From Bacillota bacterium (lineage in GTDB: Bacteria > Bacillota > UBA4882 > UBA10575): a DNA stretch of 47,107 bases. The notes under the pieces are model-generated. The model did no database searches, had not been told where the DNA came from, and saw only the letters and a list, made by a program, of their open reading frames with translations. Position 1 is the stretch's first letter; the number at the start of each line of letters is the position of its first letter. The DNA lies in NCBI GenBank assembly GCA_029782135.1, contig JAKOVI010000090.1, positions 1 through 47,107 on the forward strand, in the 5' to 3' direction. The position numbers and the translations under genes are program-made. This document shows, piece after piece, positions 17,236-21,246 of the stretch.

Positions 17236-17334
17236 CTGCTGCTCCTGTTGGATTGGGTAGAAGTTTAAGATTATTATCTGCAGATTTACGGGAAGTATGA
17301 GGATGCCGGGTTAGCTTTGGGGGAAAAGAGGAAG

Positions 17335-17364
17335 GAAAAGAAAAGAGCCACCTGTGTAGGTGGC
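17335..17364 (-). terminator. Terminator at the end of the structured leader
   Basis: On the minus strand GCCACCT (17364-17358), loop ACAC and AGGTGGC (17353-17347) form a perfect stem, followed by TCTTTTCTTTT. It lies ~100 bases before the PHP gene start, the position of an attenuator. Alternatively it ends a small RNA. Confidence 0.75.
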
Positions 17365-17510
17365 GAATCTTATATTTGAAAAAGATGAATAGATTTAATT
17401 GCGAAACTCTCTCTGACTGCCGGCGTGGTCAAGAGAAAGGCGAGCAACTGCAGCTGATGGGCCCTATCAACCGGAGCGCTCTACGCTCCTTGGTAACCTA
17501 CCGCGAAGCG
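17335..17510 (-). ncRNA. Structured leader or small RNA of unrecognised family
   Basis: Between a good minus-strand promoter and a terminator lies a ~175-base transcript with strong structure and no reading frame of note. Helices visible on the minus strand include GGAGCG/CGCTCC, TGAT...ATCA enclosing GGGCCC, TCTCT-TGAC/GTCA-GAGAGA with a one-base bulge, and GGTA/TACC near the 5' end. I compared it by eye with common riboswitch, T-box, 6S and SRP patterns and found no match. It precedes the PHP gene on the same strand, so it may be a riboswitch with a terminator platform, or an independent sRNA. Confidence 0.5.
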
Positions 17511-17517
17511 TATTTTA

Positions 17518-17546
17518 ATATTAGCATATGAGAGAAAAAAATGCAA
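17518..17546 (-). promoter_or_regulatory. Promoter of the structured leader
   Basis: Minus strand: TTGCAT (17546-17541), a 17-base spacer and TAATAT (17523-17518). The start would be near 17510. The AT-rich flank contains two AAAAATTTTT tracts. Confidence 0.7.
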
Positions 17547-20625: not shown

Positions 20626-20702
20626 GGGGGGGTAGCCCAGTTGGTTAGAGCGCTACGTTGACATCGTAGAGGTCAGCGGTTCGAGCCCGCTCCTCCCCAC
20701 CA
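20626..20702 (+). tRNA. tRNA-Val (anticodon GAC)
   Basis: A complete cloverleaf of 77 bases with encoded CCA. The acceptor GGGGGGG pairs with CCTCCCC (one G-U), with D arm GCCC/GAGC, anticodon stem CTACG/CGTAG with loop TTGACAT (anticodon GAC, Val GUC/GUU), and T arm with GTTCGAG. It is a single-gene transcript with its own promoter and terminator. Confidence 0.97.
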
Positions 20703-20714
20703 TAAAGAAAGATC

Positions 20715-20739
20715 AAGCAGGGGTTTCCTGCTTTTTTTT
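20715..20739 (+). terminator. Terminator of the tRNA gene
   Basis: AAGCAGG (20715-20721), loop GGTTT and CCTGCTT (20727-20733), ending in a run of eight T. Confidence 0.85.
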
Positions 20740-20799
20740 ATTTTTGCCCCACCTTTCAAAATCTCCCGCTTTTATATATTTTTTGCTGACGTTAAGTAC

Positions 20800-20828
20800 T
20801 TGTAAAGTGGAGGGGCTTATGCTATAAT
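20800..20828 (+). promoter_or_regulatory. Promoter of the yqzL-pheST transcript
   Basis: TTGTAA (20800-20805), a 17-base spacer and TATAAT (20823-20828) with an upstream TG (extended -10). No other promoter is seen before the T-box. Confidence 0.75.
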
Positions 20829-20880
20829 GTGAATAAATGGCGGACAGAGGTGACCAGAATAATAGAAGGGGAGGGGTTTT

Positions 20881-20976
20881 ATGATCCTTTCCGCAGAATT
20901 TTTCTGGAGACTTTTTGAGATTACCGGTTCGATCACTGCATACCTGTTATATAAGGAATTTATTAATCTCAATTAG
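20881..20976 (+). CDS. YqzL-like micro-protein in the pheST leader
   Basis: A 31-codon gene preceded by GGGGAGGGG. Its product (…FFWRLFEITGSITAYLLYKEF…) matches the YqzL-like family of very small Firmicutes proteins, with the typical W-x2-F-x3-G-x-I-x-AYLLYKE pattern. In Bacillus yqzL lies upstream of recO. Here it lies between the promoter and the T-box, so it would be translated from every leader transcript, including those that terminate. Function of the family is unknown. Confidence 0.7.
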   Translation: MILSAEFFWRLFEITGSITAYLLYKEFINLN

Positions 20977-20984
20977 AGTAAAGA

Positions 20985-21246
20985 AAAGAAAGACGAAGAA
21001 AGAAAAAGAGACCGTTATGAACGGTACAGGGAGGAATGGGTAATTGAGAACATTCCCCGGGATGACGGTTGAGTTCCTTCTGGAGTCGCCGGCTGAAATG
21101 TAGAGTAGGCTGTGCCGGTTTCCACCGTTACGGAAAAGATATTTGGACGTCAGTCAAATATCGCTGAGTTGAGTCTGTAAGACTAATATGGGTGGTACCG
21201 CGGAAGTAGCCTTTCGTCCCTAACTGGGTCGGAAGGTTTTTGTTTT
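20985..21246 (+). promoter_or_regulatory. T-box leader sensing uncharged tRNA-Phe
   Basis: The hallmark T-box sequence GGGTGGTACCGCGG is at 21190-21203, followed by CCTTTCGTCCC and the terminator. Upstream the stem I region begins near 20985-21010 with CCGTT/AACGG helices; a TTC triplet in GAGTTCCTTC (about 21070-21080) is a candidate Phe specifier. The downstream genes pheS and pheT fix the amino acid. Uncharged tRNA-Phe pairs with the specifier and with TGGT, favouring the antiterminator. Stem I limits and the specifier are approximate. Confidence 0.9.
21210..21246 (+). terminator. T-box terminator
   Basis: CCTTTCGTCCC (21210-21220) pairs with GGGTCGGAAGG (21226-21236) with mismatches, followed by TTTTTGTTTT. 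It competes with the antiterminator formed with GGGTGGTACCGCGG. Confidence 0.85.

Follow-up and report, generated by a model that had tools for sequence, protein, structure and literature searches.

Does the densely structured segment that lies among PHP-type genes on the minus strand of contig JAKOVI010000090.1 (assembly GCA_029782135.1) regulate one of these genes, or is it a gene in its own right? The window, that is, the whole 47,107-nucleotide stretch of Bacillota DNA that was analysed, had been read beforehand from its letters, without database searches. That sequence-only reading described a consensus-like promoter, dense helices, a spacer and a terminator in front of one of two PHP phosphoesterase genes, and proposed an undescribed RNA that might sense the substrate or product of the enzyme.

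A compact transcription unit

Between positions 17546 and 17338 of the minus strand, a promoter-like site is followed by three hairpins (17512–17407), an A/U-rich linker and a terminator (17364–17338), which together form one RNA gene of about 170 nt (Table 1). The helices, spacer and terminator described beforehand are borne out. The segment 17515–17335 has a predicted energy of −58.1 kcal/mol, against a mean of −43.5 kcal/mol for shuffled sequences (z = −3.80; none of 200 shuffles folded as well), and the terminator hairpin comprises 7 bp (17364–17347). The promoter call stood in part: TTGCAT-17 nt-TAATAT is present, but it is near-consensus only and is absent from the list of a strict sigma-70 scan (9 of 12). 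A −10-like hexamer is found a few bases 5′ of P1 in most homologues and is a perfect TATAAT in most copies of family f5. Over all copies the enrichment is moderate, with a mean best score of 8.4 of 12 versus 7.2 in shuffles. Reading frames inside the RNA are short and inconsistent, so the RNA is considered not to be coding.

Table 1 Features of the RNA gene and of the adjacent motif, in window coordinates
Feature	Positions	Strand	Description	Basis
Promoter	17518..17546	−	−35 TTGCAT (17546–17541), 17-nt spacer, −10 TAATAT (17523–17518)	Sequence
P1	17482..17512	−	5′-terminal hairpin, beginning at about the predicted transcript start	MFE fold; class-wide equivalents
P2	17442..17481	−	Long hairpin GAGC...GCUC with inner helices	Covarying pairs; covariance model matches
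Loop 1	17459..17464	−	Palindromic hexamer GGGCCC, A17465 just before	Variants across 39 distinct rows; centre-pair covariation rank
P3	17407..17438	−	Hairpin with stem UUUCUCUUGAC/GUCAGAGAGAG	Covariation, including GAC/GUC to GGC/GCC in f4
Loop 2	17419..17424	−	Invariant palindromic hexamer GCCGGC	39/39 distinct copies
Linker	17365..17406	−	A/U-rich, single-stranded	Sequence
Terminator	17338..17364	−	Intrinsic, GCCACC-UACACA-GGUGGC and T-rich tail	Sequence; equivalents in homologues
Promoter-like motif	17270..17300	−	TCATACT...GATAATAAT, just before PHP, outside the RNA	Conserved by eye in g1 and g2

A structured RNA family of one bacterial class

None of the 4227 families of Rfam 15 reached its gathering score at the element or its homologues, and the matches found with permissive settings were at chance level, which bears out the earlier failure to recognise a riboswitch, T-box, 6S or SRP RNA. 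The only Rfam matches in the surroundings were a T-box and a tRNA; on the plus strand, positions 20626–21224 hold a tRNA-Val (gac) followed by a T-box leader ahead of pheS-pheT. A literature search found no noncoding RNA for this bacterial group.

A first DNA search over 61 genomes returned relatives in 17; one of these is from the same order, and the rest belong to the family of the window (f1). With a covariance model (R1), most f1 genomes proved to have a further, diverged copy and copies also turned up in f4, and two further rounds of model building (R2 and R3) extended the matches to f5. In total, 40 full-length copies were collected; of the 29 genomes that represent the class, 26 carry the RNA. 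Two copies are present in 14 of the 16 f1 genomes, one of those in G001 being cut by a contig end; f4 has two copies, f2 one, and the f5 genomes that carry the RNA one each. No copy was found in G017 (f3) and G023 (f5) beside sigK or nrdR, the sites occupied in relatives, and in G028 the sigK contigs end before the expected site.

The 382 genomes of the phylum outside the class gave no match to the covariance model under stricter filters. A weak hit of an earlier search in G063, also outside the class, was judged false on inspection, and three weak covariance hits (L114, L115 and L116), which have no promoter, P1 or terminator, appear to be fortuitous. The named records that contain the core pattern come from Bacillota MAGs, one of which is labelled Hydrogenispora sp. 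Matches in Comamonadaceae, Duganella, Bosea, Acidimicrobiales and Enhydrobacter were taken as chance, the pattern consisting of 19 GC-rich bases, and the viral collection held no match to it. As far as was searched, the RNA is confined to one class of anaerobic bacteria.

Covariation is strong in the P2 and P3 helices. When 34 matches were aligned by fitting to the model, standard pairs filled 88.8% of the stem cells, and 125 stem cells were changed on both sides compared with 48.8 in shuffles; sliding the stem partners by 1–3 columns lowers pairing to 35–45%. RNAalifold, run on a MAFFT alignment that was not fitted to the model, independently arrived at P3 and the terminator, both with compensatory changes. 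Within the 5′ arm of P2 (A2 columns 3–20) it also proposed a local hairpin that competes with the long P2. The long P2 hairpin and this alternative (GCGUC...GACGC) might be two states of a switch, and f1 copies do show double changes for both folds. However, inspection showed that f5 copies do not form the alternative, and against the tree null its pairs fall short of significance, which makes such a switch very unlikely. As the local hairpin covaries within f1 only and is absent from f5, P2 is taken as the class-wide fold. P1 has equivalents throughout the class, in which the hairpin is kept and the paired sequence diverges; the f5 copies L110, L112, L119 and L120 have a GURCGG-like motif in common in the P1 apical region.

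A terminator hairpin is recognisable in nearly all copies and its stem sequence is unusually conserved, CCACC/GGUGG being kept across families, which is unusual for a terminator. The exception is L092 (G016), where no terminator was recognised within 130 nt downstream of the RNA and a repeated GGTATCTCAGGT-like sequence is found instead. Within the linker, an AAGGUU..AAUU-like motif recurs in B-type (second) and f5 copies and is absent from the A-type copy of the window. In distant B-type and f5 copies, such as L084 and L119, it reads AAGGUUGYAAUU or AGGUUUUACAAUU and could be a pairing seed.

Conservation and covariation in 40 homologues, the check on related genomes that had been suggested, give decisive support, and a structured RNA is accepted on this ground. 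Together with the negative Rfam search they uphold the proposal of an undescribed structured RNA: nearly certainly, this is a family without an Rfam entry, and it is nearly universal in its class.

Gene neighbourhood

PHP-type genes (PF02811/PF13263) flank the element on both sides according to Pfam, the upstream one scoring below the cut-off of PHP and above that of PHP_C, so the position described beforehand, in front of one of two PHP genes, is correct. The other neighbours were named by reading translations, PHP alone being assigned with Pfam. If the RNA controlled the PHP gene in cis, as a riboswitch or attenuator, the arrangement found in genera g1, g2, g5 and g6, where the A-type copy precedes PHP with the terminator in between, would be expected to hold elsewhere. 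These are, however, the only groups in which it does. No downstream PHP gene is present in G003, G004 and G008, where the gene next to the A-type copy is convergent, nor at any B copy, nor in f2, f4 and f5. In most f1 genomes the B-type copy stands after mtaD and before nrdR/nrdD or an oxidoreductase gene, and f5 copies lie behind a sigK-like gene, with differing genes downstream. Nor was a conserved anti-terminator or anti-SD alternative evident, the 5′-arm hairpin covarying in f1 only.

In g1 and g2, a promoter-like motif (TCATATT...AATAATA), read by eye, is conserved between the RNA terminator and PHP. In the window its counterpart at 17270–17300 resembles a Bacillus sigma-E type promoter; PHP may be a sporulation gene. 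PHP thus appears to have its own promoter, separate from the RNA. Since the downstream gene varies or is convergent, a second copy lies elsewhere and PHP has this apparent promoter, the RNA is regarded as an independent gene. By its layout and setting it is almost certainly a free-standing noncoding RNA, a complete transcription unit with its own promoter and terminator, and not a PHP leader. A riboswitch acting on PHP is scarcely credible given the lack of a constant downstream gene, and the idea of a leader sensing the PHP substrate or product found no support: the RNA has its own terminator and no fixed gene behind it, and the B copies reside elsewhere.

Two palindromic apical loops

The apical loops of P2 (loop 1) and P3 (loop 2) both contain a six-base palindrome. 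Over 39 distinct aligned copies, loop 1 reads GGCGCC in 25, GGGCCC in 9, GACGUC in 3, and GGUGCC and GACGCC in one each. It is self-complementary in 38 of the 39, GGUGCC being so through a G-U wobble and GACGCC, in L074, being the exception, a count to be weighed against the chance of a palindrome, which in GC-rich loops exceeds 1 in 64. Loop 2 is GCCGGC in all 39, with flanks that vary in f5, and being invariant it provides no test of covariation.

Fitch reconstruction of loop 1 placed two double changes on internal branches; self-complementarity is restored by each. When the six loop-1 columns were simulated on the tree as evolving independently, with the same changes, loop 1 stayed self-complementary as often as observed with P = 0.002 for Watson–Crick pairs and P = 0.007 with G-U allowed; these values are optimistic, as CG-to-GC may be a single multi-base mutation and G-to-A and C-to-U are common transitions, and the argument comprises few independent events (two double changes, one wobble and the break in L074). 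The central columns of the loop, 25 and 26, ranked fourth among 3003 column pairs under a tree-based null (E = 0.28, not significant alone) and were the sole pair outside helices in the top seven. Because they are adjacent, their covariation cannot reflect pairing inside one molecule.

Calculated energies of the palindromic hexamers as self-duplexes range from −10.2 to −15.5 kcal/mol. Hexamer duplexes of loop 1 with loop 2 were calculated at −2.9 to −5.9 kcal/mol, and pairing between the two loops was rejected, being weak for GGGCCC and GACGUC. In g1 and g2, loop 1 is GGGCCC in the A copies and GGCGCC in the B copies, and the calculated energy of the A loop with the B loop is −8.3 kcal/mol, less favourable than for loops of the same copy type.

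A putative homodimer held by kissing loops

From the palindromy of the loops and the compensatory changes in loop 1 we infer homodimerisation, which is likely. The reading that we prefer, and hold to be probable by a modest measure, is that of a free-standing noncoding RNA whose active form is a homodimer, or a larger homo-oligomer, held by two kissing loops. One contact would join the P2 loops of two molecules through their palindromic hexamers; the other would form in like manner between P3 loops, through the invariant GCCGGC. The two kissing interactions could hold one pair of molecules together, or several molecules could form a chain. With more reserve, the copy-specific loop 1 of g1 and g2 would be expected to favour A:A and B:B over A:B pairing. 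The full proposal, in which a compact RNA with two independent palindromic loops forms a doubly kissed homodimer or chain and the loop-diverged paralogues pair mainly with their own kind, is plausible and falls a little short of probable.

Alternatively, the RNA could be a monomeric trans-acting sRNA, possibly Hfq-dependent, with loops and linker as mRNA-pairing seeds and the palindromes incidental. Its size, its own promoter and terminator, the A/U-rich linker and the exposed conserved loops would suit this role, and since Hfq is encoded in all six class genomes tested, an sRNA role, alone or together with dimerisation, is possible. However, pairing with targets gives no reason to expect that loop 1 should change with self-complementarity kept, and a purely monomeric sRNA seems rather unlikely. 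The loops could otherwise be read by a protein, the RNA serving as a scaffold or decoy; the palindromes would then mirror the two-fold symmetry of that protein, or have arisen by chance because the loops are GC-rich. The invariance of GCCGGC across families is in line with this, and two paralogues and a wide distribution befit a housekeeping role, but a protein that reads the loop is not expected to tolerate GGCGCC, GGGCCC and GACGUC equally; we consider this reading improbable. An antisense action on 16S rRNA was rejected: the 16S rRNA sequence UGACUGCCGG is complementary to CCGGCAGUCA of P3, but f4 and f5 copies alter those bases and keep the stem.

Through its exposed linker or loops the RNA might, more tentatively, regulate in trans or act as a scaffold, possibly with Hfq; P1, the linker and the terminator may carry the real function instead.

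Natural RNA-only oligomers are rare and those described so far are mostly very large or viral. This housekeeping-like RNA of about 170 nt is usually present in the best-sampled genera as paralogues with differing loop 1. If it does dimerise, few natural RNA homodimers would be simpler, and self-recognition between RNAs could readily be tested on it.

Comparison with known systems

Like 6S RNA (RF00013), the RNA is free-standing, of similar length and present in two copies per genome, but it is made of three hairpins and does not have the long bulged rod. Identity with 6S RNA was rejected on this fold, on the absence of an RF00013 match and on the presence of two genuine 6S RNAs elsewhere in the same genome (G000:C37:79237-79418 and C52:6986-7165).

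The Guanidine-II riboswitch has two hairpins. Their loops can kiss via self-complementary bases (PMC7357161); the contact there consists of two bases in a cis-regulatory aptamer, whereas the present RNA is a free-standing gene with six-base loops. The dimerisation initiation site (DIS) of HIV-1 is a six-base palindromic kissing loop, and as in loops 1 and 2 its palindrome is GC-rich and apical (PMC7357161). The P3 loop of the f5 copy L113 (AAA-GCCGGC-A) resembles the purine-flanked DIS loop. This is an analogy between unrelated RNAs: here there are two palindromic loops rather than one, and loop 1 has a single unpaired 5′ residue.

OLE, ROOL and GOLLD are homo-oligomeric and, like this RNA, free-standing conserved bacterial RNAs. 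Symmetric kissing loops were seen by cryo-EM in OLE L9.3 and GOLLD L21a, and covarying loop palindromes (GGCC/GAUC/AGCU in OLE L9.3; GC/CG in GOLLD L21a) support the OLE B3 and GOLLD B8 contacts (PMC12286853). The reasoning from loop covariation that cannot be intramolecular is identical to that applied here to loop 1, where the kissing contact is a prediction. Those RNAs are much larger and ornate, and no Rfam match links them to the present one, which at about 170 nt consists of simple hairpins.
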